Of a stretch of DNA of 64,000 nt, positions 27,376-46,103 are shown one piece after another (the stretch's first letter is position 1; the number at the start of each line of letters is the position of its first letter). The DNA is from an uncultured Bacteroidales bacterium (GTDB lineage: Bacteria; Bacteroidota; Bacteroidia; Bacteroidales; Paludibacteraceae). The notes under the pieces were generated by a model, which saw only the letters and a program-made list of their open reading frames with translations, did not search any database and was not told where the DNA came from. Both the position numbers and the translations under genes were made by a program. The stretch covers positions 20,638-84,637 of the forward strand of contig CADBZO010000005.1 in NCBI GenBank assembly GCA_902799185.1. Direction: 5' to 3'.

Positions 27376-28428
27376 ATGGCAGATATAGAGAAAATCAATC
27401 CGACCAAAATAGTTTCTGCGGAACTTCTCGGTGACTTGCGGAAGATAATCGATTCCGCTCGTTCCCACGTAGCTGCTACCGCTAATTATGAGTTGACGGC
27501 GATGTATTGGCATATCGGTGACCGCATCAATCGCGATGTGCTGAATAACGAGCGTGCTGAATATGGCAAGCAAATTGTGTCGACGCTATCGACACAATTA
27601 CAACAAGAGTATGGAACGAAGGGATTTGATGAAAAAAGTATCCGTCGAATGATGCAATTTGCCCAGACATTTCCCGATTTTCAAATTGTCGCACCACTGG
27701 CGCGAAAATTGTCATGGTCTCATTTTCAAATAGTTATGCCGATTAAGGATGCACTCCAACGAGAGTTTTATCTAACCATGGCAGCAACCGAAAGATGGAG
27801 CAGAAGGACGCTCCAAGCCAAGATTGATGGCATGTTGTATGAACGCACAGCGATTGCTACAAAACCGGAGGAACTGATCAAGCAGGAACTGGCAGATTTG
27901 CGTGATAACGAGACTCTGTCTCCGGATTTGGTGTTCAAGAGCCCTTATTTCTTGGAGTTTACAGGTCTCAAAGGCATGTATTCAGAGAAATCGCTGGAAG
28001 ATAGTCTGGTCGTGCATTTAGAGCAGTTTATCATGGAGTTGGGCAACGGCTTTACGTTTGTGGAGCGCCAGAAACGAATGATCATTGACGGCGAGGACTT
28101 TTATTTGGATCTGCTATTCTATCACCGCAAGTTGCATCGTTTGATAGCTATAGACCTCAAACTCGGTCGTTTCAAAGCGCAGTACAAGGGTCAAATGGAG
28201 TTGTATCTGCGTTGGTTGGAGCAGAATGAGATGCAGCCGGACGAAGAGTCACCGCTTGGATTACTATTGTGTACGGAAGGAAGCGAGGAACAGATAAACT
28301 TGCTTCAATTGGATAAGTCGGGCATCCGGGTAGCGCAATATCTGACCGAACTACCATCCAAAGAGGTTCTTCTGCGCCAATTACAAAAATCCTTAGCCGC
28401 CGCCAAAGAATTATCCACCGAGCGATGA
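27376..28428 (+). CDS. DUF1016 (YhcG-type) PD-(D/E)xK nuclease
   Basis: 350 residues. The N-terminal DUF1016_N part (about 10-170) has ANYELTAMYWHIGDRINRDV, and SVHFQ-like WSHFQIVMPIKDALQREFYL. The C-terminal nuclease part has FYLDLLFYHRKLHRLIAIDL followed by K, L, G (about 240-262), where Asp, Asp/Glu and Lys of the PD-(D/E)xK core are visible. DUF1016 genes are common in type I restriction and other defence loci; their role is unclear. Here the gene lies between direct repeats and upstream of DUF262 and hsd genes on the same strand. Confidence 0.87.
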   Translation: MADIEKINPTKIVSAELLGDLRKIIDSARSHVAATANYELTAMYWHIGDRINRDVLNNERAEYGKQIVSTLSTQLQQEYGTKGFDEKSIRRMMQFAQTFPDFQIVAPLARKLSWSHFQIVMPIKDALQREFYLTMAATERWSRRTLQAKIDGMLYERTAIATKPEELIKQELADLRDNETLSPDLVFKSPYFLEFTGLKGMYSEKSLEDSLVVHLEQFIMELGNGFTFVERQKRMIIDGEDFYLDLLFYHRKLHRLIAIDLKLGRFKAQYKGQMELYLRWLEQNEMQPDEESPLGLLLCTEGSEEQINLLQLDKSGIRVAQYLTELPSKEVLLRQLQKSLAAAKELSTER

Positions 28429-28434
28429 GCGGGA
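28415..28434 (+). repeat. 20-bp direct repeat, right copy
   Basis: CCACCGAGCGATGAGCGGGA, identical to 27314-27333 and 1101 bp away. It encodes the last residues (STER) and the stop of the DUF1016 protein. Degenerate GACGAGCG/GAGAGACGAG words follow. Confidence 0.85.
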
Positions 28435-28482
28435 CAAGACCGAGAGACGAGCGAGAAATAAAATTATAGAATAAACAAAGAT

Positions 28483-30144
28483 ATGGATAGAATAGAGATT
28501 ATTAATCAATGGAATCTTCAAAGAGTTTTCCAAGAGTTAGAACGTGGCAATATGCGAATCCCACGTTTCCAGCGTGCATATGTGTGGGAGCGTTCTAAGA
28601 TTGTGAGATTGCTGAATAGTATTTCAATGAGCTATCCAATAGGTTCGTTCTTTCTCTGGGAAACGGATACAACCATGGAGGCTTTTGGACGGGATATAAC
28701 CGAATTTGGTTTTCCGAAGAAGCCACAGGGTAACTATTTTATGTTTATATTGGATGGGCAACAACGTATTACTTCGTTGTATGTCTCGCTGATGGGTAAA
28801 ACATTAAACGGAATCGATTACTCCAAAATATGCTATAATCTTGATTCTAAAAAATTCAAGATACCGCAATTAAAGACAGAACAGCATAATATTCCTGTTT
28901 GGAAAATATGGGATGCAAAAGAGTACAGCAATTTACTGATGGATTATGCTAAGAATGGCGATTTCGATCGTATGCAAGCGCTCAAAGAATGTCAGGAATG
29001 TTTGTACAATTATCCAATTAGTATCATCATGTCGCGTAATATGGGGCTTGAAGAAGTAGTGGATATCTTTGAACGTATTAATCAGGGCGGTAAGCGCTTA
29101 TCACTCTTTGATTTAGTCCATGCAACTGTATGGTCGCAAGATTTTGACTTGCGTGAAAAGATTAAAGATTTCAATAACGAAAAAGCAATTAGTTTGTTCG
29201 GTAAAATTGGCGAAGAAATATTTACACAGTCTCTATCGCTTAATATCAAACATGATTGTACTAAACTTGTTCAATTGAAATTAACGAATCAGGAATGTAT
29301 AAATGCATGGGCAAGAACAATTGAGTGTATACGCATAGCTATTGATTATGTGAAATCATTAGGCGCACAAAACTTATCCATTTTGCCCTATGCCAATATG
29401 CTTGCTATCATCCAGCACTATTTATATATTGGCAAATATAATGGAATTCAACCTATTCACACCAAGTTGATTAGTGATTGGTTCTGGACTGTTACATTCT
29501 CCAATCGTTATTCGTCATCTACACTCACGCGTATGAATGAAGATGCAAACTGGATTTCACGCATTGTTGCAGGGAAAAACGAATCGCGCATCTTCAGTAT
29601 ATCGCTGAAAGCAGATGACTTAAAGCGTGTAAGGATGAATACCATTTCGGTTGTCAAGAATGGTATCTTGTGTCTAATGGCTAGTAATTCTCCTCGCGAC
29701 TTTGATAATGGTCAAGTGGTAACATTGGATAATACAAATGCATCGCGTTCCAATTCCAAGGAGAACCACCACTTCTTCCCCTTCTCTTTACACAATACAT
29801 TTGGACTTACAGCAAATGAGGCTAATTCGGTATTGAACTTTGCATTTATTTCCAAACGTTTAAATGGCACTATTCTCAATAAGAAACCGTCTAGATATCT
29901 TACAGAATATGAAAGTGCCACAGATAAGATAGTAGAAAATCTGGCTACGCATTTTATTTCAGAAAAAGCATTTGAGTCGGCTAAGAATGATGATTTCAAT
30001 GCATTTATTGAAGAGCGCGGGAAAACTATCATGGCAGAGATCAATAGAGTTTGTCAAGTACAAGATCCTCATACGATAGCACCAATCATTGATGAAGATG
30101 ATATTGAAAACGATCTTATTGATGTAGATGAGGATAACGAGTAA
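28483..30144 (+). CDS. DUF262/DUF1524 protein (GmrSD-like)
   Basis: 553 residues. The N-terminal DUF262 (ParB-like/GmrS) part has RIPRFQRAYVWERSKIVRLL and LDGQQRITSLY (about 91), the nucleotide-binding QQR motif. Near residue 428 KENHHFFPFSLHNTF fits the HNH-like DUF1524 (GmrD) H-x-x-P motif. GmrSD-type enzymes are modification-dependent nucleases that attack phage DNA with altered bases. The gene is AT-rich against its core-genome neighbours, a sign of transfer. It is followed after 34 bp by a membrane-protein gene. Confidence 0.85.
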   Translation: MDRIEIINQWNLQRVFQELERGNMRIPRFQRAYVWERSKIVRLLNSISMSYPIGSFFLWETDTTMEAFGRDITEFGFPKKPQGNYFMFILDGQQRITSLYVSLMGKTLNGIDYSKICYNLDSKKFKIPQLKTEQHNIPVWKIWDAKEYSNLLMDYAKNGDFDRMQALKECQECLYNYPISIIMSRNMGLEEVVDIFERINQGGKRLSLFDLVHATVWSQDFDLREKIKDFNNEKAISLFGKIGEEIFTQSLSLNIKHDCTKLVQLKLTNQECINAWARTIECIRIAIDYVKSLGAQNLSILPYANMLAIIQHYLYIGKYNGIQPIHTKLISDWFWTVTFSNRYSSSTLTRMNEDANWISRIVAGKNESRIFSISLKADDLKRVRMNTISVVKNGILCLMASNSPRDFDNGQVVTLDNTNASRSNSKENHHFFPFSLHNTFGLTANEANSVLNFAFISKRLNGTILNKKPSRYLTEYESATDKIVENLATHFISEKAFESAKNDDFNAFIEERGKTIMAEINRVCQVQDPHTIAPIIDEDDIENDLIDVDEDNE

Positions 30145-30178
30145 GCGCTAAAATTAAAAGTAATAGTAATAATACATT

Positions 30179-31327
30179 ATGACAAAAAAAGAAATATTAG
30201 ATGTCTTATACTCGGAGAGAAATAGACTCATGAGCATGTATACACGCCCAGGGTGGACAACTTGGGCGTTAGTTGGTGCCATCGCTTCTCTATTGTGGAT
30301 AATGCTCGATTTGTATTTCCGCGCTTCCATTTCTTGGATATATAGCGTTGCTATTTATTTCCTTTTATATAACATTTATGTATGTGGAGGATGTCTGGTA
30401 ATTTCTTTTAAGAATGATCATCAACCAATATGGCAAAAGTATGAATTTACAGATAGAATAAAGCTTGTTTATGCATTTATTATATACGCAGTACAACTAC
30501 TATTATTAATCATCCATAAGTCCTTTTTTGTAGGAGGCATATCAGAAGTGTTCTATTGGTTTTCTATTGTATTTATTGCTGTATTATTGCTTCTTTTCTT
30601 ACTAATATACCTTCTCTCTTTTATACCATCCCTGAGAACACAAAAAAATAATCGTTGGGGTGGTTTCTTGGGACTGTTCTTTTTATTGATAGCAGTAACA
30701 TGGGGGATATTTATAATCCGCGAGCATAATTTTCTAGACGAAGGTAGTATAAAAGTAGGATTATTACTGGTTGCAATAGGGTTGTTAATGGAATGTTTTA
30801 ATATATCTACTCCTAGCAAATTAAAAAAGTTGGATAATCTTATCAATAAAGTTTTGTATGAAAATTATATCGATGAAGATGCAGTTATGTCTGAGTTGGA
30901 AAAATGCATGATAGGACTTAAATATGGAGATTACCTAATGAATCAGAATTATGATTATATCTCCAAATGGACTAGATATTTATATTATAATTTGCTGACA
31001 CTTAATGACTCTATCAATAACTCGACAGGTTATAATGATACTATTCATTCTGTAATACATGATTCTATGAAAAGAATTGACAATCTCCAACCAGTTGTTC
31101 ATAATGTACTAAAAATGATAAAATTAGGATATGACGAAACAGATGTTGATCCTAAACTTTCTCCACTTTTGCGCGTAATGCAAGATTCCATAGACATAAT
31201 CGGCATATGGCTCGAAATCCAGAAAAAAACGTCTGAATATAACTTTGAGGACTTTGGAAAATTTGTAAATGCCAAGATGCAAGAAGCAGATATTATCTTT
31301 AAGAAAAACAACATCAACAATGAATAA
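30179..31327 (+). CDS. Six-helix membrane protein coupled to hsdM
   Basis: 382 residues. About six hydrophobic segments lie in the first 215 residues (for example WALVGAIASLLWIMLDLYF, VFYWFSIVFIAVLLLLFLLIY, GGFLGLFFLLIAVTWGIFII). A soluble, helical C-terminal region of about 165 residues follows. I recognise no family. The DNA is strongly AT-rich. Its stop overlaps the hsdM start (ATGAATAA, 31320-31327), so the two are translationally coupled. The position suggests a membrane-linked part of the restriction system or an unrelated cargo gene; an abortive effector is only a guess. Confidence 0.75.
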   Translation: MTKKEILDVLYSERNRLMSMYTRPGWTTWALVGAIASLLWIMLDLYFRASISWIYSVAIYFLLYNIYVCGGCLVISFKNDHQPIWQKYEFTDRIKLVYAFIIYAVQLLLLIIHKSFFVGGISEVFYWFSIVFIAVLLLLFLLIYLLSFIPSLRTQKNNRWGGFLGLFFLLIAVTWGIFIIREHNFLDEGSIKVGLLLVAIGLLMECFNISTPSKLKKLDNLINKVLYENYIDEDAVMSELEKCMIGLKYGDYLMNQNYDYISKWTRYLYYNLLTLNDSINNSTGYNDTIHSVIHDSMKRIDNLQPVVHNVLKMIKLGYDETDVDPKLSPLLRVMQDSIDIIGIWLEIQKKTSEYNFEDFGKFVNAKMQEADIIFKKNNINNE

Positions 31328-33326
31328 ACAACAACTTGCCGCACGCATCTGGGCTTCTGCGAATAAGATGCGTTCCAAAATCGAAGCCAGTGAGTACAAG
31401 GATTATATACTCGGTTTTATCTTCTATAAATATCTTTCCGATAAGGAAGAAGCGTTCATGCTTTCCGAGGGCGGTATGACGCAAGCCGAATTAGTGCAAG
31501 TGGAGGAACAGGACGAAGAAATCGTGCAGTTCTGCCAAACGAACTTAGGTTATTTTATAGCTTATAACAACCTCTTTTCCACATGGCTTAAACCCAATGC
31601 GGATTTCGGAGTGGAGAATGTCACTAAGGCGTTAAGTGCGTTTGAGCGTCTTATCAATGAGAATTATAAAAAACTGTTTGAAGGTATTTTCTCATCCCTC
31701 AGCGCCGGATTGACTAAGTTAGGCTCAACAGCTGCCCAACAATCGAAAGCCATTTTGGATTTGCTGTCCTTGATAAAAGATATTCCTACGGACGATCGGC
31801 AGGGATATGACGTGCTGGGCTTTATCTACGAGTATCTGATCGGTCAGTTTGCAGCCAATGCAGGCAAGAAAGCGGGTGAGTTTTACACGCCGCACGAAGT
31901 GAGCCTGTTGATGTCTGAGATTGTAGCAAGCCATTTGCACGACCGTAAAACCATCTCTATCTATGACCCGACCAGCGGTTCCGGTTCGTTGCTGCTTAAT
32001 ATCGGGCGCGCCATCAGCAAGCACACCACTAACAAAGATAGTGTGCATTACTATGCGCAAGAACTGAAATCTGCTACTTATAACCTGACGCGGATGAATC
32101 TGGTTATGCGTGGTATCAAGCCCGGAAATATCGAGGTGAGGAACGCAGACACCTTAGAGGAAGACTGGCCGAAAGACGAGCGCACGGGTGCACCGACTCT
32201 ATATCTGGATGCAGTGGTTAGCAATCCGCCTTATTCGCAAGCGTGGAATCCCAATAACAAAGAATTGGATCCGCGTTACCGTTACGGTGTAGCCCCTAAA
32301 GGCAAAGCCGATTATGCGTTCTTGCTGCATGATTTGTACCACCTCAAGCCGGACGGTATTATGACTATTGTTCTGCCGCACGGCGTTCTTTTCCGTGGCG
32401 ACCCTGCCAAAGACGAGGCGGAAGGAGTAATCCGCAAGAATCTGATTGAGAACAATCACATAGATGCGATTATCGGTTTGCCGGCGGATGTGTTCTTCGG
32501 AACTGGAATTGCTACTATTATTATGGTGCTTCGCCAGAAACGCGACAGGGATGATGTGCTGTTTATAGATGCAAGCAAAGGCTTTATCAAATCCGGCAAG
32601 AAGAACAAACTCCGTGCTTCGGATATCCGTCGAATCGTAGATACTTATACAGCACGGCAGGATATAGATAAATACTCGCGCCGTGTCAGTCGTGAGGAAA
32701 TACGCACCAACGGCTACAACCTGAATATCCCTCGCTATGTGGATTCAAGCGACGCCGCAGAGACTTGGGATTTATATGCCACGATGTATGGCGCTATTCC
32801 AAATCGGGAAATAGATGCGTTGCCTTATTGGAAGCACCTGCCAACACTGCGTGATTCTATCTTTGAGCGTATCAGTTCGACGCACAGCCAACCGCGTATG
32901 GGGTATGATTCATCCATCGGTATTCGTTTGTTTATTGAGACAGACAAGAGTTTCGCGCAACTCAAAACCGATTATAACCGCACAATGGATGGATTGGTGG
33001 ATTATCTCAATAAAGAACTGCTGCAATCCATCACCGCTATTCCTACCAACCAAGAGGAAGATATTATTTCTGCGGAACTGTTCGGACGGCTTGGCAAACA
33101 TCCTGTTTTCAATCCGTATGATGTCTATCAGCTCTTGGATGACTCATGGCAAACGATTGCTGCCGACCTTGAAATCCTGCAAACAGAAGGATGGAAAAGT
33201 GTGCGAGAGATAGAGCCGAACATGGTCAGGACGGCTGGCGAGGTCGTATTATGCCGTTTGAACTGGTACAACAACTCTTTCTGTCAGACGAACTGGAACA
33301 CAAAGCGAACCTGCAACTGCAAATAG
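31320..33326 (+). CDS. hsdM: Type I restriction-modification methyltransferase HsdM (frameshifted, N-terminal part)
   Basis: Starts at ATG 31320 (MNKQQLAARIWASANKMRSK), the usual HsdM N-terminus; an ORF start at 31269 lies inside the previous gene. AGEFYTP (about 186-192), the SAM-binding DPTSGSGSL (216-224) and the catalytic NPPY (302-305) define an N6-adenine methyltransferase. After VREIEPNMV the frame runs into 17 unrelated residues and stops at 33326. The expected continuation QDGWRGRIMPFELVQ is found in the +1 frame (33236 on). Adding one base near 33230 would restore a protein of about 844 residues. Either a real frameshift or a sequencing error. Confidence 0.85.
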   Translation: MNKQQLAARIWASANKMRSKIEASEYKDYILGFIFYKYLSDKEEAFMLSEGGMTQAELVQVEEQDEEIVQFCQTNLGYFIAYNNLFSTWLKPNADFGVENVTKALSAFERLINENYKKLFEGIFSSLSAGLTKLGSTAAQQSKAILDLLSLIKDIPTDDRQGYDVLGFIYEYLIGQFAANAGKKAGEFYTPHEVSLLMSEIVASHLHDRKTISIYDPTSGSGSLLLNIGRAISKHTTNKDSVHYYAQELKSATYNLTRMNLVMRGIKPGNIEVRNADTLEEDWPKDERTGAPTLYLDAVVSNPPYSQAWNPNNKELDPRYRYGVAPKGKADYAFLLHDLYHLKPDGIMTIVLPHGVLFRGDPAKDEAEGVIRKNLIENNHIDAIIGLPADVFFGTGIATIIMVLRQKRDRDDVLFIDASKGFIKSGKKNKLRASDIRRIVDTYTARQDIDKYSRRVSREEIRTNGYNLNIPRYVDSSDAAETWDLYATMYGAIPNREIDALPYWKHLPTLRDSIFERISSTHSQPRMGYDSSIGIRLFIETDKSFAQLKTDYNRTMDGLVDYLNKELLQSITAIPTNQEEDIISAELFGRLGKHPVFNPYDVYQLLDDSWQTIAADLEILQTEGWKSVREIEPNMVRTAGEVVLCRLNWYNNSFCQTNWNTKRTCNCK

Positions 33327-33850
33327 AGGAACTAACAAGCGATATAGATGATAAATTGCGCGAACTAAGCGACGAGAATCGCGAGAAATATATTGATGCA
33401 GAAACAGAAAAGTTCGACGCTAAACTACTTGCAGCGGATGTGAAGGCAATGCAGAAAGACCCGGATTTGAAGGACCCGGAACTGATAGAACTGCAACGCT
33501 TGATCAGTAAGCAGAAAGAGACGAGCAAAGAACTCAAAGCCCTCGAAACGGCACTTATTGATCTTACCTGTCAGCGCATAGAGCAACTGACCGACGAGGA
33601 AGCCTATGCACTTCTGCGCGAGAAGTGGATTAAACCGCTTTGCACAAAAGTCTTTGCTCTGCCTGAGGAACTGCTCAGTGCTATCGAAAAAGAGGTTAAC
33701 CAACTTATCAAGCGCTATTCCGATACGCTTTTAAGCGTTGGACAAGAGATAGAGACGGCCGAGAAAGAACTGGCAGGGTTATTAGGCGAACTGACAGGCG
33801 ACGAAGCCGATATGCAGGCTATCCAAGAACTCCAAAAACTTTTGAAATAA
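33191..33850 (+). pseudogene. hsdM: C-terminal part of HsdM in a shifted frame
   Basis: This frame opens at ATG 33191, but similarity to HsdM begins only at QDGWRGRIMPFELVQ (33236). It then continues as a long coiled coil (KANLQLQIEELTSDIDDKLR, KEVNQLIKRYSDTLL, IETAEKELAGLL), which in long HsdM proteins contacts HsdS. If not joined to the N-terminal part by recoding, the methyltransferase would lose this contact region. The stop overlaps the hsdS start by one base (TAATG), as expected for the authentic end of hsdM. Confidence 0.7.
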
Positions 33851-35031
33851 TGGCAAAAGTACCAAACATACGATTCAAAGGTTTCACGGACGAGTGGGAA
33901 GGAGGAAAAATCGGAGATGCCTTTAGCGAAAGAGACGAACATTCAGGAAACGGTGAATTACTATCAGTAACCATCAATTCTGGTATTCGCAGAGCTGTAG
34001 ACATGGAGCGCACTTTTGCAACTGGTGATCTGAGCAAATACAAAGTTGTCCAAAAAGGCGACATTGCGTACAATACTATGCGAATGTGGCAAGGTGCTTG
34101 CGGTGTCTCTGAATATTCTGGTATAGTTAGTCCCGCTTATACTATTGCGACTCCTAAAGACGAGCAGGATAGTGCTTTTTATGCCTATTATTTTAAGTCA
34201 AATAAAATGTTGCAAAACTTTCGTATAAACTCACAAGGATTAACCTCGGATACATGGAATCTTAGATATCCAGTTTTTGCAAGTATAGATATTCATTATC
34301 CGAATAAGCAAGAACAAAAAGAAATAGCCAATTTTTTACGCACCATTGATAGCACTATCTCTCAGCGAGAGAAAGAATTAGAGAAACTAAAGAATATCAA
34401 GCGCGCATTATTGGAACGCATGTTCCCGCAAGACGAGCAAACAACTCCGTCTATCCGATTTAATGGATTCACAGATGAGTGGGAAGAAAAGAAAGCAGAT
34501 GATATTTTTATATCCTTTGATGAACGAAATCATCCGGAATTACCGGTGCTTGCAGCGACCCAAGACAAAGGAATGGTAATTAGAGAAGAAATAGGCTACA
34601 AAATTGCACATAATACAAGTAATGAGGTTGGATATAAGCATGTTCTTCCTGGGCAATTTGTTATACACCTTCGTTCTTTCCAAGGAGGTTTTGCTCATTC
34701 TAATGTAGAAGGAATTACCTCGCCCGCATATGATGTGTTTGGATTAAGAAACCCTGAGAAACATGATGATTGCTTCTGGAAATATATCTTTTGTTCTTCG
34801 TGGTTTATTAAGAGATTAGTTACTGTTACATATGGCATTCGTGATGGGCGAAATGTCAGCTACAACGAATTTCTTGGATTATCGTTTATGGTTCCCTCCA
34901 AACAGGAGCAGATTCGCATAGCCAAATTATTCAAAACACTCGGCGAACAGATTTCTCTCCGCGAACGGCAATTAACATTATTAAAACATACCAAACAGGC
35001 ATTACTGGAACAAATGTTTGTAAACGAATAA
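33850..35031 (+). CDS. hsdS: Type I restriction specificity subunit HsdS
   Basis: 393 residues with two target-recognition domains. Each begins with a repeat (RFKGFTDEWEGGKIGDAF near 8, RFNGFTDEWEEKKADDIF near 201) and ends with a coiled spacer (KQEQKEIANFLRTIDSTISQ, KQEQIRIAKLFKTLGEQISL). The half-domains set the bipartite DNA target. The two TRDs differ from each other, so the site should be asymmetric. There is no nearby second hsdS or recombinase, so inversion-based switching is not evident. The next gene starts on the base after its stop. Confidence 0.92.
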   Translation: MAKVPNIRFKGFTDEWEGGKIGDAFSERDEHSGNGELLSVTINSGIRRAVDMERTFATGDLSKYKVVQKGDIAYNTMRMWQGACGVSEYSGIVSPAYTIATPKDEQDSAFYAYYFKSNKMLQNFRINSQGLTSDTWNLRYPVFASIDIHYPNKQEQKEIANFLRTIDSTISQREKELEKLKNIKRALLERMFPQDEQTTPSIRFNGFTDEWEEKKADDIFISFDERNHPELPVLAATQDKGMVIREEIGYKIAHNTSNEVGYKHVLPGQFVIHLRSFQGGFAHSNVEGITSPAYDVFGLRNPEKHDDCFWKYIFCSSWFIKRLVTVTYGIRDGRNVSYNEFLGLSFMVPSKQEQIRIAKLFKTLGEQISLRERQLTLLKHTKQALLEQMFVNE

Positions 35032-36324
35032 ATGTCCTCCGAACATGACATATGGCAACCGCAGGAGCCGGGCAAAGCATGGAAGGGAGCCGGGCTATAC
35101 CATATCACGCTGACAATACCGTCGCGTGAGCCGTTGTTGGGCTCGCTGGCTATCCCCGAAAACGATCCCGCCCAAGCGAAGGTGGAGTATAGCGATCTGG
35201 GGCGGGCGGTTTTGGATTATCAGATTGCTAATGCAGCCCATTATCCCGAGATACAGATTCTCCATTATTGCCTCATGCCCGATCACCTCCATGCCGTCTG
35301 GTATGTCCGCAAGGCTATGCCCCGTGGCATTGAATCCGCGGTGCGCGGTTTCTGGCAGGGCGTCAAGAAAGCAGGCCGGGCGTATTCCTATCTTTCTTCT
35401 ATTAAACCCGAATCAGATTCGGGGGAAGGAAAGAAAATATATGAGGTAGCCGAGCATCTGCGAGGGCAGATACCCGATGCGGCATACGCCGCTCTCCCGC
35501 CCGTCTTTACCGAGATGCCTTTCATCCGCCCGATGGGGCAACGGCGGCAGCTGCCAACGACCATCCGCTATATAGATATGAATCCGCAGCGATTGGCTAC
35601 CAAGCGTTTGAAACCAGGATTCTTCCGCGTACAGGAGGGTATTGAGATAGCAGGGCGCACCTATCGCGGCATCGGAAATACTGCATTGTTGCAGGCAACA
35701 AAATATGCGCCCGTTCATGTAAGGCGGACGATGATTGACGAAGCTATGCATGGCGACAACACACGCTTGCGCAATTATATGAACGGCTGTGTGCTGGCAG
35801 CACGTCAGGGAGCTGTGATGGTCTCGCCCTTTATCTCCGACAAGGAGAAAGAGGTGATGGTGGTTCTTTTGGCGGAGGAGCATCCTATTATCTATATCGC
35901 GGATAATGGCTTCCGCGATTATTACAAGCCGAGTGACGGCTTATTTGACTCCGTCGCCGCCGGGCGCGTACTGATACTCTCGCCGTGGAAGTATGATCCC
36001 TCCAAGCGCCATGTAACGCGCGCGGAGTGCGTAGCGATGAATCAGATGGCGGAGGAGATATGCGCCCTTTCTTCACTTAACCCCGAATCCGATTCGGGGG
36101 AACAAAAGAAAACACAAAACGGAACCATCGATTCGGGGGAACAAAAGAAAACACAAAACGATACCCTCGATTCGGAGGAACAAAAGAAAACACAAAACGG
36201 AACCCTCGATTCGGGGGAACCAAAGAAAACATATAGCGATACCCTCGATTCGGGAGGCGGCGGAAACCTCGCTTTTTCTTCTCATACGCCCGAATCGGAT
36301 TCGGGCATAACGCCAAGAAAATAA
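35032..36324 (+). CDS. Long RAYT-like (HUH, Y1) protein with Rossmann-like C-terminal domain, copy 1
   Basis: 430 residues. Residues 1-220 match REP-associated tyrosine transposases: LYHITLTIPSREPLLGSL, the HUH motif CLMPDHLHAV (His85, His87) and RYIDMNPQRLA. Residues about 230-350 (AARQGAVMVSPFISDKEKEV, PIIYIADNGF, YYKPSDGLFD, GRVLILSPW) look like a DprA/SLOG-type Rossmann domain, unusual for RAYTs, which are normally about 200 residues. The tail is a 13-residue repeat (DSGEQKKTQNGTL) encoded by REP-like DNA. It abuts hsdS (0 bp) and precedes hsdR by 8 bp, so it is embedded in the hsd operon. Confidence 0.8.
   Translation: MSSEHDIWQPQEPGKAWKGAGLYHITLTIPSREPLLGSLAIPENDPAQAKVEYSDLGRAVLDYQIANAAHYPEIQILHYCLMPDHLHAVWYVRKAMPRGIESAVRGFWQGVKKAGRAYSYLSSIKPESDSGEGKKIYEVAEHLRGQIPDAAYAALPPVFTEMPFIRPMGQRRQLPTTIRYIDMNPQRLATKRLKPGFFRVQEGIEIAGRTYRGIGNTALLQATKYAPVHVRRTMIDEAMHGDNTRLRNYMNGCVLAARQGAVMVSPFISDKEKEVMVVLLAEEHPIIYIADNGFRDYYKPSDGLFDSVAAGRVLILSPWKYDPSKRHVTRAECVAMNQMAEEICALSSLNPESDSGEQKKTQNGTIDSGEQKKTQNDTLDSEEQKKTQNGTLDSGEPKKTYSDTLDSGGGGNLAFSSHTPESDSGITPRK
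35407..35423. repeat. REP-like palindrome within RAYT copy 1
   Basis: CCCGAATCAGATTCGGG, in frame as KPESDSGE. Same class as those at 36082, 36289, 40310 and 40974. Confidence 0.8.
36082..36305. repeat. REP-like palindromes and 39-bp tandem repeats at the end of RAYT copy 1
   Basis: CCCGAATCCGATTCGGG (36082-36098) opens the block and CCCGAATCGGATTCGGG (36289-36305) closes it. Between them a 39-bp unit that starts with the half site CGATTCGGGGGAAC repeats about four times, in frame. Confidence 0.85.
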
Positions 36325-36332
36325 CACAACAT

Positions 36333-39300
36333 ATGTACGATAGCGAACTACAATTTGAGCGTGATTTGGTAGCGTTCATGACTACCAAAGGTTGGAGCAA
36401 CAAGATTCTGAAGAACTGCACCGAGCAGCAGCTGATTGAGAATTGGGCAAACATTCTCTTTCAGAACAACTCCGGCATTGATTCATTGAACGGTTGTCCG
36501 CTTACGTCAACCGAGATGCAGCAAATTATTGCGCAAGTCAATACTTTGCGCACACCTTGGGCACTCAATGGTTTTATTAACGGCAAGACGGTAAATATCA
36601 CTCGTGACAATCCAAATGACAAACTCCATTGTGGAAAGACCGTCAGTCTCTCTATCTACGACCGCAGCCAGATTGCGTCGGGCAGTAGTGTGTATCAGAT
36701 AGCCGAACAGCCGCAGTTCACGACAGCCCATCCCCTTGCCAGCGACAGACGAGGCGACTTAATGCTGCTCATCAATGGTATGCCGGTATTTCATATCGAA
36801 CTCAAACGCTCACGCGTGGATGTGTCGCAGGCAGTCGCCCAGATACGCAAGTATTACAAAGAGGGCATTTTCTCGCAAGGTATCTTCTCACTTGTACAGG
36901 TATTCGTTGCAATGAATCCCGAAGAAACGGTGTATTTCGCGAACCCCGGTCAATATGATGCTTTTTCTCCGCAATACCAATTCCATTGGGCGGATTTTAA
37001 TAATGAGCCTATCAACGATTGGAAAAGTATCGCTACTCATCTGCTTTCTATCCCGATGGCGCACCAGATGATTGGTTTCTATACCGTTCCGGACAAACTG
37101 GCAGGCAATCTAAAGGTAATGCGCAGTTATCAATACTATGCCGCATCCGCTATTGCTGACCGTGTAGCAACATGCCGATGGGAAGAGAAAGATCCGTTTG
37201 GTGGTTATATATGGCATACGACAGGAAGCGGCAAAACGATGACTTCTTTCAAATCCGCCCAACTGATGGCTGATTCAGGCAAAGCCGATAAGGTGGTATT
37301 CCTCATGGACCGTATCGAGTTAGGCACCCAGACGGCTCTCGAATACCGGGGCTTCAAGACAGATTTAGAGGAAGTACAAGAGACAGAAGATACCGCCGAC
37401 CTCATTGGCAAATTGGATAGTCCCGATAAGCAAAATACGCTTATTGTCACCTCTATTCAGAAGATGAGCCGTATTGTGCCGAACAACAGAAACAGCCACC
37501 AACTCAAACGGATAAACCAGAAACGAATAGTAATCATCATAGATGAATGTCACAGGGATGTGTTCGGCGATATGCTGAGCACTATCCGCGCTACTTTCAC
37601 ACATGCTATCTTCTTTGGCTTTACGGGTACGCCTATTCATGAGGAAAACAAAAAGATGCTGCTTACTACCGCAGCTGTTTTTGGCAATGAGTTACACCGC
37701 TACAGCATAGCAGACGGTATCCGCGATGAGAACGTGCTGAAGTTTGACCCTATTATGAAAATAGTGTTCCCTGACGATGAAATGCGTCGCAAGGTGGCAC
37801 TCTACAAAGCCCATGCGGACGACGAACAACAAGCATTGGCGGACGAGAAGAAAAAAGCCGTTTATCTGCATTATATGAACGAAGTGCCAATGGCAGGCAA
37901 GACAGAAGCGGATGAAGGCATCGAGGATTATATCCCCAAAGCACAATACAAAGAAGGCAAGTACCAACGTGCTATCGTGGAAGATATACAAAAGCATTTC
38001 CCGTCGCTCAGTTTGGGCGGTAAGTATCACGCTATTTTTGCTACATCCTCTATTGATGAAGCTTTTGAATACTACATCTATCTCCGCACTTTTGCTCGCG
38101 AGTTGAAAACTACCTGTTTGGTTGACCCGTCTATTGATAACGAGGGGAAGGGAGAAGTAAAGGAAGAAGTGTTGCTAAAGATACTGGAGGATTATAATGC
38201 CCTGTATAACAAAAGCTTTACCATGCCCCGCTATGCGGCGTTCAAGAAAGATGTTGCTCTACGATTGGCGCACAAGGATCTGTACAAAGGCATAGAGAAT
38301 AATCCGGCGCAGTGTCTGGATGTATTGGTAGTAGTAAATCAAATGCTTACCGGATATGATTCCCATTGGGTCAATACCTTATATCTTGACAAAGAGTTAC
38401 GCAACGAAAATCTTATTCAGGCATTCTCTCGCACCAACCGTTTGAACGGACCCGATAAACCGCACGGAACAATATGCTACTATCGCTATCCGCATACCAT
38501 GAAACGAAATATCGAGCAGGCTATCCGGCTCTATTCGGGAGACAAGCCGCTTGGTATAATGATGGCGGAGCAATTAGAAGTACATATACAGGCGATCAAT
38601 ACTGCTTACGCTCAGATACAACTCCTATTCAAAACAGCAGGCATAAAAGACTTCTCCAAACTCCCGGAAGAAAAAGATGTACAGGGGCAATTCTCCAAAC
38701 TGTTCAAAGAACTTAACCGACATCTTAATGCCGCCAAAGTACAAGGCTTTACATGGGACAAACTGCAAGGCAATATTTTCCAGACTGAAGCGGAGGGAGA
38801 ACATGAAGCGGTTAGTATGTCTATGGCTATTGACGAAACGGCTTATGGCGCATTGCTGCAACGTTATAAAGAGATATATCGTGTTCCGCGTGATAGACCA
38901 ACGGACGAAGTTACGTTTGAGGTAGATCCCTATATTATTTCTATCAATACAGGAGCTATTGATACGGAGTATATGAATGCCCGTTTCCGTAAATATATGC
39001 GGACGTTGGATAACTATGCGACGAAGGAAGAACAGGCGCAAGCGTTAGAGGAATTGCATCGCTCATTCTCTACTTTGACGCAAGAAGAACAAGATTTTGC
39101 GGAACTATTCTTGCATGATGTTCAGCGCGGACAAATACATGTGGATGAATCCAAGACGTTGCGCGATTATCTCACGGAATATATGACACGTGCCAAGAAT
39201 GACCGTATTCACCGTTTTGCTGAAGCATTGGGGTTGAATGAAGATATATTGCGTGAAATCATGACAAACTACATGCCCGATGATATTATACCGCCGGGAC

Positions 39301-39452
39301 CGTTTGAGCAATTGCGTCTTAGTGTGAATAAAGAAAAAGCGAAAGCATGGTTTGAGCAACACGAAGGAGTGCCCATTCAATCCTTCCGCATCAATATGCG
39401 TATAGATCGTATCCTCCGCGCATTTATTGAGGAAGGTGGATTTGAAGTGTAG
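36333..39452 (+). CDS. hsdR: Type I restriction endonuclease subunit HsdR
   Basis: 1039 residues. The N-terminal nuclease has RRGDLMLLINGMPVFHIELK (Asp142, Glu156-x-Lys158), the PD-(D/E)xK site. The SF2 motor follows: Walker A TTGSGKT (296-302), DECH (404-407), FTGTP (430-434) and IQAFSRTNR. The C-terminal helical region (after about 800) binds the methyltransferase core. HsdR translocates and cuts DNA lacking the host methyl mark. The gene appears intact, so a defective HsdM with active HsdR would be hazardous. This argues that the hsdM frameshift is either tolerated by recoding or an error. Confidence 0.93.
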   Translation: MYDSELQFERDLVAFMTTKGWSNKILKNCTEQQLIENWANILFQNNSGIDSLNGCPLTSTEMQQIIAQVNTLRTPWALNGFINGKTVNITRDNPNDKLHCGKTVSLSIYDRSQIASGSSVYQIAEQPQFTTAHPLASDRRGDLMLLINGMPVFHIELKRSRVDVSQAVAQIRKYYKEGIFSQGIFSLVQVFVAMNPEETVYFANPGQYDAFSPQYQFHWADFNNEPINDWKSIATHLLSIPMAHQMIGFYTVPDKLAGNLKVMRSYQYYAASAIADRVATCRWEEKDPFGGYIWHTTGSGKTMTSFKSAQLMADSGKADKVVFLMDRIELGTQTALEYRGFKTDLEEVQETEDTADLIGKLDSPDKQNTLIVTSIQKMSRIVPNNRNSHQLKRINQKRIVIIIDECHRDVFGDMLSTIRATFTHAIFFGFTGTPIHEENKKMLLTTAAVFGNELHRYSIADGIRDENVLKFDPIMKIVFPDDEMRRKVALYKAHADDEQQALADEKKKAVYLHYMNEVPMAGKTEADEGIEDYIPKAQYKEGKYQRAIVEDIQKHFPSLSLGGKYHAIFATSSIDEAFEYYIYLRTFARELKTTCLVDPSIDNEGKGEVKEEVLLKILEDYNALYNKSFTMPRYAAFKKDVALRLAHKDLYKGIENNPAQCLDVLVVVNQMLTGYDSHWVNTLYLDKELRNENLIQAFSRTNRLNGPDKPHGTICYYRYPHTMKRNIEQAIRLYSGDKPLGIMMAEQLEVHIQAINTAYAQIQLLFKTAGIKDFSKLPEEKDVQGQFSKLFKELNRHLNAAKVQGFTWDKLQGNIFQTEAEGEHEAVSMSMAIDETAYGALLQRYKEIYRVPRDRPTDEVTFEVDPYIISINTGAIDTEYMNARFRKYMRTLDNYATKEEQAQALEELHRSFSTLTQEEQDFAELFLHDVQRGQIHVDESKTLRDYLTEYMTRAKNDRIHRFAEALGLNEDILREIMTNYMPDDIIPPGPFEQLRLSVNKEKAKAWFEQHEGVPIQSFRINMRIDRILRAFIEEGGFEV

Positions 39453-39707
39453 TAAATATCTATTGCTCAGCCTTAGTCTTTATAAACATAAATGAAATAA
39501 AACACAAAAAAATAAAAAAAGTTGCTTTTGAGGTGATAGATTCGGGCACTTTTTGACATCTATATGAAGGGGGATATATAAACAACTACAAATATGCAAT
39601 TACCTAAGTGTTCGCAATTCGCGAACGGCGAACACAACATATTAACATATACCGCAATTCCATTAAAAAGTACAAATTTATGGATTATATTCCAAAAAAT
39701 AATATAA
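39453..39707. other. Intergenic region after hsdR with inverted repeat
   Basis: AT-rich, no gene. GTTCGC and GCGAAC form a hairpin around 39610-39628. One operator-like box GGATTATATTCC lies at 39682-39693; a second, GGATTATACTCC, is at 39714-39725. Confidence 0.45.
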
Positions 39708-39818
39708 TTTTTCGGATTATACTCCAAAAAGTTTGCAGATTTCAAAATCCTGAAAGCCTATGACATCAAAGGAACAGCAATAGTCACTACCGACAATTAC
39801 CTTGATTGGCTCATTTAG
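39708..39818 (+). pseudogene. C-terminal remnant of an unidentified gene
   Basis: A short open frame without a start codon reads KFADFKILKAYDIKGTAIVT and ends NYLDWLI before TAG 39816-39818. The sequence looks like a genuine protein end (amphipathic, no low complexity) and is cut off by a stop at 39705-39707. I cannot name the family. It suggests that another gene was lost between hsdR and RAYT copy 2. Confidence 0.4.
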
Positions 39819-39950
39819 TCCGTGCCCTGTCCTCATAATCACGGCATGCTTACGGGGAATAGATTGGGAAAAATGAGCGGGCAACGGCATTGCCCTGAAA
39901 AAAGAAGAAAAAGGAATAAGCAAAACGAAACACAAAAAGGAAGAATAGAC

Positions 39951-41042
39951 ATGGCAGATCACGACACATGGCATTGGCATGAACCCGGAACGGCATGGAA
40001 AGGCGCCGGACTATACCATATCACGATGACGATTCCGTCGCGTGAGCCGTTGTTAGGCTCCCTCCTCATTCCCAATAATGACCCTAAGCAAGCACATATA
40101 AAGCGGACGGAATTAGGAGACACCTTGGTGGATTGCCTTTTGAGCATTCCAAGGTATCATCCAAATGTTGAGATCTTGCATTTCTGCCTCATGCCCGATC
40201 ACCTTCACGCGGTAATCTATGTGACGCGGGAGATGTCTGAGGGCATCGCCTCTGTAGTGCGCGGCTTTTGGCAGGCCGCGAAGAAACTGGGGCGTGCTTC
40301 TTCTTTCGCCCCGAATGCCATTCGGGAGAACTACCAAGAAGGGGCAAATATCCTCCGTAATCAATTAGGCGATGCAGCGTATTATCAACTCCCGCCGATC
40401 TTTACCGAGATGCCCTTCATCCGCCCGATGGGACATCGGGATCAGTTACCCACTACCATCCGCTATATAGATATGAACCCTCAGCGGTTGGCTACCAAAA
40501 AGCTCATGCCGGGGTTCTTCCGCGTGCAAGAGGACATCGAGATAGCCGGACGGAAGTACCGCGGCATCGGTAATGCCGCTTTGCTGCAAGCCTCCCGATT
40601 TGCGCCCGTGCATGTCCGCCGGACGATGATAGATGAGGCGATGCACGGCGATAACAAGCGCCTCCGCGATTATATGAACGGCTGTGTAGTAGCTGCCCGT
40701 CAGGGAGCGGTGATGATCTCGCCGTTCATCTCCGATAAAGAGAAGGAGGTGATGATCGTTCTGCTCGCAGAGGAACATTCCATCATCTATATCGCGGATA
40801 ACGGTTTTAGCGATTATTACAAGCCCAGTGACGGCTTGTTTGATGCCGTTGCCGCCGGTCGCGTCCTCATCCTCAGCCCATGGGAGTACGATCCCTCCAA
40901 ACACCATGTCACCCGCCCCGAATGCGTCGCCATGAACCAGATGGCAGAAGAGATATGCTCTTTGTCCATCGTTCCCGAATCCGATTCGGGGCAAAACGAA
41001 AAAAAGTTGCTTTATAGAATAACACAAAACATCTATAAATAA
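39951..41042 (+). CDS. Long RAYT-like (HUH, Y1) protein with Rossmann-like C-terminal domain, copy 2
   Basis: 363 residues from ATG 39951, preceded by an AAAGGAAG purine run. It is a close paralogue of copy 1, clearly similar in DNA as well: LYHITMTIPSREPLLGSL, CLMPDHLHAV with both His, RYIDMNPQRLA, and the C-terminal AARQGAVMISPFISDKEKEV through GRVLILSPW. It has no 39-bp tandem tail but carries two REP-like palindromes (40310-40326, 40974-40990). It may act on REP-like DNA. Single-strand cleavage is known for RAYTs; the added domain's role is unknown. Confidence 0.8.
   Translation: MADHDTWHWHEPGTAWKGAGLYHITMTIPSREPLLGSLLIPNNDPKQAHIKRTELGDTLVDCLLSIPRYHPNVEILHFCLMPDHLHAVIYVTREMSEGIASVVRGFWQAAKKLGRASSFAPNAIRENYQEGANILRNQLGDAAYYQLPPIFTEMPFIRPMGHRDQLPTTIRYIDMNPQRLATKKLMPGFFRVQEDIEIAGRKYRGIGNAALLQASRFAPVHVRRTMIDEAMHGDNKRLRDYMNGCVVAARQGAVMISPFISDKEKEVMIVLLAEEHSIIYIADNGFSDYYKPSDGLFDAVAAGRVLILSPWEYDPSKHHVTRPECVAMNQMAEEICSLSIVPESDSGQNEKKLLYRITQNIYK
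40310..40326. repeat. REP-like palindrome in RAYT copy 2
   Basis: CCCGAATGCCATTCGGG; arms differ by one base pair from the other copies (G-C in place of C-G), keeping the pairing. Confidence 0.75.
40974..40990. repeat. REP-like palindrome near the end of RAYT copy 2
   Basis: CCCGAATCCGATTCGGG, identical to 36082-36098, again encoding PESDSG at the end of the conserved protein. Confidence 0.8.
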
Positions 41043-41054
41043 GAACGAAGAACA

Positions 41055-41288
41055 ATGTCAATAGACACTACTAATATGTGCTCGCATTTGCAGCGGAAGT
41101 TATTTGCGGAGGACGGCGAATACCGTGTTATCCGGGAGCAGATAGAGAACGACCCGACGCTCACGGCGGTTGTGCGTTCGCGGCAGCTGCATATCTATCG
41201 CGACGGGAAGAAGATACTGGTCCTTGCAGGCAAGAGCGCACCGAAGATTATCCGGAACGACCAACTGAGCGAGTTACTGAATGGATAA
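41055..41288 (+). CDS. Small hypothetical protein
   Basis: 77 residues, starting MSIDTTNMCSHLQRKLF. The second half (VVRSRQLHIYRDGKKILVLA and the following GKSAPKII) looks like a small beta-rich domain ending in a helix. No family recognised. Its stop overlaps the exonuclease start by 8 bp (ATGGATAA), so the two are coupled and likely work together. Confidence 0.65.
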   Translation: MSIDTTNMCSHLQRKLFAEDGEYRVIREQIENDPTLTAVVRSRQLHIYRDGKKILVLAGKSAPKIIRNDQLSELLNG

Positions 41289-41796
41289 TTTCGTAGCCAT
41301 AGATTTTGAGACGGCGAACTTCGCGCAGTCAAGCGTCTGTTCGGTCGGGTTGGTCATCGTCAAAGACGGCGAGATAGTGGATAACTACTATTCGCTCATC
41401 CGGCCGGTGCCGAACTACTACAACGCGCGTTGCAGCGAAGTGAACGGCTTGCATTTCGACGACACCAATGACGCGCCGGAGTTTCCCGACGTGTGGACGG
41501 AGGCGGTGAAGAAAGTGCATGAGTATTTCCCGTATATCGAGGACGGCGAAGTGCCGTTCGTGGCGCACAACAAAGCCTTTGACGAGAACTGCCTGAAGGC
41601 GGTCTTCCGTGCGTACGACATAGCCTATCCGGACTATGCGTTTGAATGCACCTTGCTCCGTTCGCGCAAAGTGTGGCCCGGCGGACATCACAACCTGGAT
41701 ATCATTGCCGCCTACTGCGGTTACGACATGACGAACCACCATCACGCCCTCGCTGACGCAGAGGCATGTGCTATTATTGCAAAACAGATATTATGA
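41281..41796 (+). CDS. DnaQ-like 3'-5' exonuclease
   Basis: 171 residues. FVAIDFETANF (Asp8, Glu10), PFVAHNKAFDENCL (Asp in motif II) and HHALADAEACAII (His and Asp of motif III) are the DEDDh exonuclease motifs. It is a stand-alone epsilon-like domain similar to the exonuclease part of DNA polymerase III. Both ends overlap neighbours (ATGGATAA upstream, ATGA downstream), giving a three-gene translational unit. A role in DNA repair or nucleic-acid turnover is likely. Confidence 0.88.
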   Translation: MDNFVAIDFETANFAQSSVCSVGLVIVKDGEIVDNYYSLIRPVPNYYNARCSEVNGLHFDDTNDAPEFPDVWTEAVKKVHEYFPYIEDGEVPFVAHNKAFDENCLKAVFRAYDIAYPDYAFECTLLRSRKVWPGGHHNLDIIAAYCGYDMTNHHHALADAEACAIIAKQIL

Positions 41797-45495: not shown

Positions 45496-45565
45496 GTGTA
45501 TGTGCTCTTTGACGTACTGGATTTACCGTAAAAAAAAAGAATTCCGGACGATTTTTGCGTGAAAA

Positions 45566-45597
45566 CTTGCATATGTCAGGAAATTGTAGTAATTTTG
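45566..45597 (+). promoter_or_regulatory. Promoter of the toxin-antitoxin pair
   Basis: CTTGCATATGTC (45566-45577) with TAATTTTG at 45590-45597; ATG of the antitoxin is 34 bp downstream. Confidence 0.8.
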
Positions 45598-45630
45598 CGA
45601 GCAAAATCGCAAAAAACACATACAAGAATT

Positions 45631-45801
45631 ATGGAAGAGACACTATCGATGTTAGAAAAAGATTTCGGAACCAGAATGCATGAACCGATGCTTGGCAATT
45701 ATGGTGACGAGGTATATTATACTCGCGAGGAATTTATGAATGAGTTGGCTAAGCAACTCGGGCAGGCTTATGGCTTGAATGATATTAGGGAGGCGAGATA
45801 A
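45631..45801 (+). CDS. Antitoxin of a ParE/RelE-type pair
   Basis: 56 residues from ATG 45631 (MEETLSMLEKDFGTRMHEPM). Acidic, with a helical second half (YTREEFMNELAKQLGQAYGL). No ribbon-helix-helix or HTH motif is obvious, so autoregulation is uncertain. Its stop overlaps the toxin start by one base (TAATG), the usual coupled order antitoxin-toxin. It is identified by position rather than by sequence. Confidence 0.6.
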   Translation: MEETLSMLEKDFGTRMHEPMLGNYGDEVYYTREEFMNELAKQLGQAYGLNDIREAR

Positions 45802-46103
45802 TGCGCTATACACTTTATTTCAAGTCCAAGGCTTATTCTGACATTCTGGGCTTAAAGGAGTACATATATAATAATTGTGCTGCTCCGCTGACAGCCCTCC
45901 GTCAGTTTGAATTATTAGATAAACATCTAACATGGTTGGAGCAATATGCCGAGCTTCCGGGAGTGGATGTGGAATTATCCATAAAGTACGGAAAGATAAT
46001 GCGCACTGTTCCTTTTGGAAGAAAGATGGCAGTCATTTATTCTGTAGAAGATAATATAGTTTATATCCATCGTATAATGCCCCAAAGCATGATCATCTAT
46101 TGA
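45801..46103 (+). CDS. ParE/RelE-superfamily toxin
   Basis: 100 residues. The fold signature is YTLYFKSKAYSDILGLKEYI near the start, a helical middle, then KIMRTVPFGRKMAVIYSVED and VYIHRIMPQSM at the end, matching the ParE/RelE core with C-terminal basic and His residues. ParE members poison gyrase and RelE members cut mRNA; which applies cannot be told from sequence. A strong terminator follows 40 bp downstream. Confidence 0.78.
   Translation: MRYTLYFKSKAYSDILGLKEYIYNNCAAPLTALRQFELLDKHLTWLEQYAELPGVDVELSIKYGKIMRTVPFGRKMAVIYSVEDNIVYIHRIMPQSMIIY

Follow-up and report, generated by a model that had tools for sequence, protein, structure and literature searches.

Proteins of the TnpAREP/RAYT type, whose HuH and Y motifs we take as defined in Quentin 2018 (PMC6006769), recognise repetitive extragenic palindromes (REPs) as single-stranded DNA (ssDNA), according to Corneloup 2021 (PMC8266576). 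For E. coli TnpAREP (4er8) and the group 2 and 3 REPtrons that paper gives a HUH fold and an irregular folded ssDNA hairpin as substrate, with REPs beside the gene and many scattered copies. REPs inside genes are reported in a passage of Di Nocera 2013 (PMC3733652). In-frame REPs inside tnpAREP genes are also known already: the account of subclass 2.4 in PMC6006769 places them between HuH and Y, and gives as traits of that subclass the motifs NH[IFV]H and YIxNNP, a median length of 194 aa, no C-terminal core extension and GT[AG]G at the REP foot. Separate subclasses with long C-terminal domains appear in the same account without REPs. Here we describe two related genes, copy 1 (W1) and copy 2 (W2), that lie in and beside a type I restriction (hsd) operon in a 64,000-nucleotide stretch (the window) of an uncultured Bacteroidales bacterium (GCA_902799185.1, contig CADBZO010000005.1, positions 20,638 to 84,637). 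Each carries a two-stem hairpin within its open reading frame (ORF). These hairpins, which an initial annotation of the window did not include, are the strongest signal of the locus and its main feature.

Like subclass 2.4, the two genes and their relatives encode class-2 Y1 HUH proteins of Bacteroidetes with a palindrome in frame between HuH and Y. Unlike subclass 2.4, they have DHLH and YIDMNP motifs, a length of about 365 aa and a DprA-like domain, with no GT[AG]G near the inner foot of the hairpin in 82 of 84 genes. They share the HUH fold with E. coli TnpAREP and the REPtrons, but here the hairpin is in the ORF and the copies are few. Judged by our literature searches, four features are new: the fusion to a DprA-like domain, the evidence from covariation, the ORF-sized unit and the link to restriction genes; neither an HUH-DprA/SLOG fusion nor a RAYT-restriction link was found among the top-ranked open-licence PMC papers. 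We estimate at about 0.6 the probability that this is a REP/RAYT-like system with its recognition element carried inside its own nuclease gene, in which the HUH domain would recognise the hairpin as ssDNA and the DprA-like domain, by analogy, would hold or protect ssDNA. It would represent a RAYT-like family whose nuclease gene and presumed recognition element are inseparable.

A scan of genome contigs gave 111 related stretches. The best 80 of the 111 were used; they are titled Bacteroidales, Paludibacteraceae, Prevotella, Prevotellaceae, Xylanibacter, Bacteroides or Bacteroidaceae and are mostly metagenome-assembled genomes. These 80 loci, the two window genes and four further genes of the same genome make up the 86 genes analysed for the hairpin (L019 and L020 excluded). 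Counts of codon frame and of GT[AG]G refer to 84 genes, with L015 and L023 also excluded and with L035, L038 and L057, whose best palindrome differs in kind, included. The inner stem is an 8-1-8 palindrome, for example CCCGAATCNGATTCGGG, located within the ORF between the HUH and Tyr motifs. Palindromes of this type match the window five times at up to two mismatches, against a mean of 0.24 in the shuffled window, and the relatives contain a like palindrome of varying sequence, mostly at nucleotides ~350-460 of the gene. The outer stem is mostly CTTCTT/AAGAAG and elsewhere GTATGT/ACATAC, GCTTCGT/ACGAAGC or CTTTGT/ACAAAG. Two sets of genes were compared. A2 (47 of the 86 genes) is free of duplicates and was picked for six of six outer pairs and at least seven inner pairs; A6 (18 genes, 17 distinct) was picked for one register. 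The TT/AA pairs of the internal loop are kept in all 17 distinct rows of A6 and, with G-T counted as paired, in 46 of the 47 rows of A2; because of how the genes were chosen, the percentages paired in these sets are partly by construction. Relative to the codons, the centre of the palindrome is in frame 1 in 71 of the 84 genes and in frame 2 in the other 13, and one DNA pattern therefore yields different peptides, such as PNAIRE and PESDSG.

The test that is free of this selection is synonymous recoding, applied to all 86 genes. A two-stem hairpin with at least 12 pairs was present in 72 of them, against 0.35 expected under recoding, and a simple palindrome with arms of at least 7 in 64, against 1.94 expected; for 76 genes the recoding test gave p <= 0.01. 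The covariation score reached 0.190 in A2 and 0.433 in A6, compared with 0.080 and 0.126 after shuffling, and cells with compensatory double changes numbered 39 (8.4 shuffled) and 41 (10.8 shuffled), respectively. The changes in the stem alter amino acids on both sides, PNAIR being replaced, for example, by LNAIQ, PTVSR or PHSMR. When six stretches of the window were folded as ssDNA, the z-scores ranged from -2.15 to -4.29. Rfam returned nothing in 33800-41300 at E up to 1. As judged from these sequence comparisons, the hairpin is preserved by evolution at the DNA or RNA level. It would be a case of a DNA or RNA structure selected through codons, strongly enough for amino-acid change, and the diverging, clearly covarying hairpins may serve as a natural panel for coevolution of HUH nuclease and hairpin. 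Rickettsia palindromic elements are likewise palindromes retained in frame within coding genes; unlike them, the present palindromes are in the gene of the presumed cognate nuclease and show compensatory changes.

A hairpin in the same region is found well outside the main family. We examined twenty distant paralogues (24-37% identity), of which one, truncated, was dropped, together with L019 and L020. Within codons 110-160 palindrome arms of at least 8 occur in 12 of these 21 genes, with 0.29 expected, and in none of the 21 in the control region. The paralogue palindromes differ in sequence from those of the window, and in several cases the private palindrome is repeated beside the gene: that of L180 occurs six times (four upstream, one internal, one 3'), those of L191 and L020 at the 5' side, internally and at the 3' side, those of L186 and L188 internally and at the 3' side, and that of L190 at the 5' side and internally with one base different. 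Such palindromes are evidently lineage-specific. In the main family, the internal and terminal hairpins resemble each other more within a gene (likeness 0.766) than across genes (0.621; 0 of 5000 permutations), as determined on the 18 genes with a strict terminal hairpin, with kinship uncorrected. A constant pairing of internal and 3' hairpins was rejected, a terminal hairpin being recognised by strict criteria in those 18 genes only; many genes have the internal hairpin alone or internal plus 3', and in W2, L022 and L024 the 3' type differs from the internal type. The 3' hairpin of copy 2 is placed by the hairpin model on the opposite strand only (20.4 bits, E 0.29), and the tandem 39-bp units at the end of copy 1 (Table 1) are fewer in the tails of L030, L033 and L034. 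In L023 and L024 a 5' palindrome like GGGCAAYGGCATTGCCC occurs twice within the 150 nt upstream of the gene.

The motifs DHLH and Y---NP can be read in both window proteins, and H83, H85, Y171, N175 and P176, which form the HuH plus Y---NP catalytic motif of TnpAREP/RAYT, are invariant in 66 sequences. An AlphaFold2 model of copy 2, the only copy modelled, built on the alignment of these 66 sequences, had a pLDDT of 84.6. In a Foldseek search with this model ShosA (8zva) ranked first (E 1.4e-5) and DprA was also returned; IS200/IS605 transposases (ISDra2 and IS608 TnpA) followed from 1.5e-5 (2xma_A), and TnpAREP 4er8 at 2.5e-4. The C-terminal 131 residues modelled separately (pLDDT 91.5) gave ShosA/DprA as the five best matches, with TMq 0.58-0.61, E 0.0099-0.15 and probability of at least 0.94, whereas the remaining 45 listed matches had probabilities of at most 0.25. 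A Rossmann domain is supported as a fold similarity by these matches, and the models support an architecture in which a Y1/HUH domain is joined to a DprA/ShosA-like Rossmann domain of ~130 aa. This fusion had been proposed in the initial annotation; the C-terminal strings quoted there (SPFISDKEKEV, YYKPSDGLFD and GRVLILSPW) are found in the sequence, and structure prediction and fold search of the C-terminal domain placed ShosA/DprA, not a non-Rossmann fold, on top. By analogy with DprA, this domain is expected to hold ssDNA. Unlike DprA and ShosA themselves, it is fused to HUH, and searches by sequence against solved structures (E up to 1) gave no match. The IS200/IS605 transposases are the closest solved HUH folds, and hairpins near the unit ends in some genes are a further likeness to them; unlike these elements, the present family has the additional DprA-like domain, and neither a fresh multicopy element nor a target sequence was seen. 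Across 14 pairs the ratio of non-synonymous to synonymous substitution rates (dN/dS) was 0.08-0.27, with dS saturated in some, indicating purifying selection on the protein.

The element was then located across genomes, with 150 candidates scored per genome for the two-stem model. In the own genome (150 of 1046 candidates scored) this model found nine places, all at or beside family genes, and two weak partial ones. In 15 further genomes it found 38 places at E 0.1 after merging strands. Thirty-five of these cover at least model positions 9-43: 30 coincide with or lie close to a family match, and 5 do not; the other three are short partial matches, all in G182 and away from family matches. A scan with the inner palindrome alone gave 9 own-genome places (8 at or close to family genes) and 107 places in 25 of 41 genomes, against none for a reversed-pattern control. 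Of the genomes that hold a family gene, 23 of 29 contain the palindrome, compared with 2 of 12 of the others (Fisher p 3e-4, from a hand-compiled table). A strictly gene-confined element was dropped as an interpretation, since the inner-palindrome scan gave solo places, and up to 18 palindromes in one genome; the palindromes away from family genes thus amount to a small REP-like population in some genomes. The highest counts, 18 in G182 and 14 in G184, are far below the more than 100 REPs per genome quoted in a passage of PMC2817692. One own-genome palindrome, CCCGAATCTGATTCGGG, is part of an unrelated ORF of 357 aa, where it encodes PESDSG in frame (G000:C39:3088-3104, L016). Solo single or double hairpins of the 3'-end type were seen in L170, L171, L172 (about 5309 and 7012) and L047:8575-8623, where, by reading, they precede lipoprotein-like genes with similar starts.

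The family was matched in 42 of 61 genomes of the window's genus. In the order, the C-terminal domain was matched in 10 of 247 genomes at E 1e-8, and in the class in 1 of 149, the own genome. Copy 2 had no match in a phage collection, a plasmid collection or viral contigs, and carriage by phage or plasmid was rejected on that result. The own assembly (2.43 Mb, 55 contigs) has eight family genes and one short fragment; its copies are 27-74% identical to copy 2 and therefore do not form a fresh multicopy element. The fragment, L021 (G000:C2:135000-142277), resembles the C-terminal domain and lies in a GC-rich stretch next to a gene that reads like YchF; it may mark a chimeric end of the contig or derive from a relative in a different lineage.

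Flank homology was tested on 22 chosen pairs. In 7 of them homology was found on neither flank (L086-L094, L080-L082, L024-L025, L025-L026, L024-L026, L053-L070 and L062-L067), and L086 and L094 are 97.4% identical from ATG-1 to stop+3. Four pairs have short flank homologies only (W2-L022, L053-L069, L056-L069 and L014-L045), for three the test was possible on a single side, and eight have one or both flanks in common and represent the same or a partly shared locus (e.g. L029-L031, W1-L033 and L050-L055). The main W2-L022 match spans from the 5' palindrome to the 3' palindrome. At the level of sequence, these pairs establish an ORF-sized unit at unrelated loci. In the remnant L169 the gene start and internal hairpin are followed directly by the downstream flank of the 3' hairpin, indicating a deletion between the internal and 3' hairpins, either by the nuclease or by slippage. 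Although the W1 clade and the L029/L031 clade occupy the same hsdS/hsdR junction, the tree separates them (node supports 0.95 and 0.82), a pattern suggestive of two insertions or of a replacement. By their equal length and junction, L133 and L029 appear to be one contig and were counted once.

In a REP/RAYT-like system of this kind, a class-2 (Y---NP) Y1 HUH single-strand nuclease/ligase domain would be joined to an ssDNA-holding DprA-like domain, and the cognate element would be the ~50-nt two-stem hairpin in the variable loop that separates the HUH and Tyr motifs of the protein, repeated in some genes near the 5' or 3' gene end. We infer that the protein recognises, cuts and transports the hairpin: it may bind and cut its own hairpins once they are single-stranded, and the hairpins would mark the unit for spread and deletion. 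Co-transcription with restriction genes would provide expression and perhaps a role in ssDNA-related defence.

Several observations weigh against this interpretation. Profile matches to the nuclease domain are below cut-off, Pfam Y1_Tnp being sub-threshold for copy 2 (E 0.047) and unmatched for copy 1, and NCBIfam REP_Tyr_transpos (NF047646) scoring 22.7 and 21.8 bits with a cut-off of 80; assignment to HUH is thus based on motifs and fold. Four of the five top matches of the C-terminal domain have E > 0.01. GT[AG]G, the guide at the 5' foot in TnpAREP/RAYT systems, is present in only 2 of the 84 genes in the stretch of 26 nt that precedes the inner stem. Ten of the 86 genes miss p 0.01 in the recoding test, and 9 of the 21 distant paralogues are without an arm of 8. 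Of 84 listed places (out of 107) of the inner palindrome, 30 are within 350 nt of a family match and 54 are farther away, and G163 and G183 have the palindrome and no family gene. By eye, no common or target sequence was seen left of the ATG in 37 upstream regions, and the sole deletion remnant, L169, could reflect slippage between direct repeats.

The relation to restriction genes bears on the best-surviving alternative, namely that the proteins are working parts of the adjoining restriction systems, for example by handling ssDNA that restriction produces or by sensing phage ssDNA with the DprA-like domain, and that the hairpins are relics. Copy 1 starts 0 bp after the hsdS stop (35031) and ends 8 bp before the hsdR start (36333), in agreement with the initial annotation. 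That annotation had taken the tight spacing as a sign of co-expression with the restriction system; copy 2 does follow hsdR, but its ATG is 501 bp past the hsdR end (39452), and the tight spacing holds for copy 1 alone. In relatives located in hsd operons the gene either overlaps the end of hsdS or follows it with no gap (0 bp), and hsdR begins 8 to about 30 bp after it. Neighbours were defined as genes of at least 80 aa within 500 nt and are given as raw counts. In the non-Prevotella set (44 genes, 75 neighbours) they include 8 HsdR, 5 Methylase_S, 5 MmeI_N, 1 McrBC and 1 GmrSD, from fewer than 44 independent contexts, about eight by tree reading, because several genes are close relatives. 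An Mrr gene lies 2 bp upstream of L057, and L063 sits between McrBC and MmeI with both junctions overlapping; L071 is followed by the same gene as L063. Repeated placement right behind restriction-operon stop codons is apparent from these junctions. The near-zero or overlapping junctions and the variety of restriction neighbours favour a working part, as does the finding, in a passage of PMC9122126, that DprA homologues work in toxin-antitoxin and defence systems. On the other hand, most relatives have no restriction neighbour, and the 25 of 50 neighbour families listed for the Prevotella clade (38 genes, 59 neighbours) include no restriction family. The gene is not constant in hsd operons either, since G138 (HsdR 81% identical), G012 and G142 have related hsd operons without it, and neither copy was matched by PADLOC. 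We regard this alternative as unlikely, though of those considered it fares best. A link to hsd alone was rejected, because MmeI, McrBC, Mrr and GmrSD genes adjoin as well: the linkage stands for copy 1 and for some relatives, so that absence from hsd operons in all relatives did not occur, but it is not hsd-specific. The family connects relatives of single-strand transposases with a DprA-like domain and with several restriction systems that are unrelated to one another. The sequences suggest a semi-domesticated mobile gene recruited into defence loci. The fuller scenario of an ORF-sized mobile HUH-DprA gene with its own hairpins, which moves from start to stop behind restriction stop codons, is translated with the operon and aids ssDNA defence, is somewhat less probable still.

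The hairpin could instead act in mRNA, the protein or the fold autoregulating translation or mRNA stability, with mobility incidental; this, too, would count against a recognition element. The conserved hairpin does sit in a translated region, G-T pairs are present in its stems, and a passage of Di Nocera 2013 (PMC3733652) holds that REP hairpins could down-regulate RAYT expression. However, part of the family has identical palindromes outside the gene and elsewhere in the genome, and lineage-specific sequences suit a recognition element better than a generic fold; we consider an mRNA role improbable, at about one chance in five. Least likely are passive REP insertions, tolerated in a flexible loop and functionless for the gene, in which case the restriction neighbourhood would reflect no more than frequent insertion into defence islands: the loop varies in length and has lower confidence in the copy 2 model, the PESDSG palindrome at G000:C39:3088 is in frame in an unrelated ORF and REP insertions in host genes are known (in passages of PMC3733652 and PMC6006769), but compensatory double changes that replace amino acids and a like placement in paralogues of 24-37% identity are unexpected of relics, and the recoding, covariation and distant-paralogue tests all weaken it.

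Table 1. Coordinates of the two genes, their hairpins and the hsd operon within the window.
Feature	Start	End	Strand	Remarks
Copy 1 (W1)	35032	36324	+	HUH/Y1 + DprA-like protein, 430 aa, between hsdS and hsdR
Internal two-stem hairpin of copy 1	35390	35439	+	Inner palindrome 35407-35423; encodes PESDSG
First 3' hairpin of copy 1	36065	36114	+	Within ORF
39-bp in-frame tandem units of copy 1	36090	36250	+	Right palindrome half in each unit
Second 3' hairpin of copy 1	36272	36323	+	Extends to stop codon
Copy 2 (W2)	39954	41042	+	HUH/Y1 + DprA-like protein, 362 aa counted from ATG, downstream of hsdR
5' palindrome upstream of copy 2	39879	39895	+	GGGCAACGGCATTGCCC; near left limit of L022-shared sequence
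Internal two-stem hairpin of copy 2	40294	40344	+	Inner palindrome 40310-40326; encodes PNAIRE; frame differs from copy 1
3' hairpin of copy 2	40958	41006	+	Inner palindrome 40974-40990; near right limit of L022-shared sequence
hsdM	31269	33850	+	Two overlapping frames, 31269-33326 and 33191-33850; Pfam and NCBIfam
hsdS	33850	35031	+	Pfam Methylase_S
hsdR	36333	39452	+	Pfam and NCBIfam

Both ORFs are confirmed as real genes. For copy 2 the ORF list gives a GTG start at 39822, and the ATG at 39954 matches the relatives. The hsdM gene is split in the window and, from coordinates, a single frame in L030 and L033, so that the split is either an assembly error or a natural frameshift. Upstream of hsdM (27376-31327) are a YhcG/DUF1016 nuclease, a GmrSD-like protein and a membrane protein; the YhcG-like and GmrSD-like genes match models in Pfam and PADLOC, and the region therefore looks like a defence island. 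A small ORF pair at 45559-46103 (80 and 100 aa) reads like a RelE/ParE-type toxin-antitoxin pair. Locus L044 has a different type I hsd system and a family gene broken by a stop or frameshift, and the gene downstream of that system is 95% identical to the window gene at 41281-41796, exonuclease-like by reading. This arrangement suggests that the site after the window hsd locus may exchange whole restriction cassettes.

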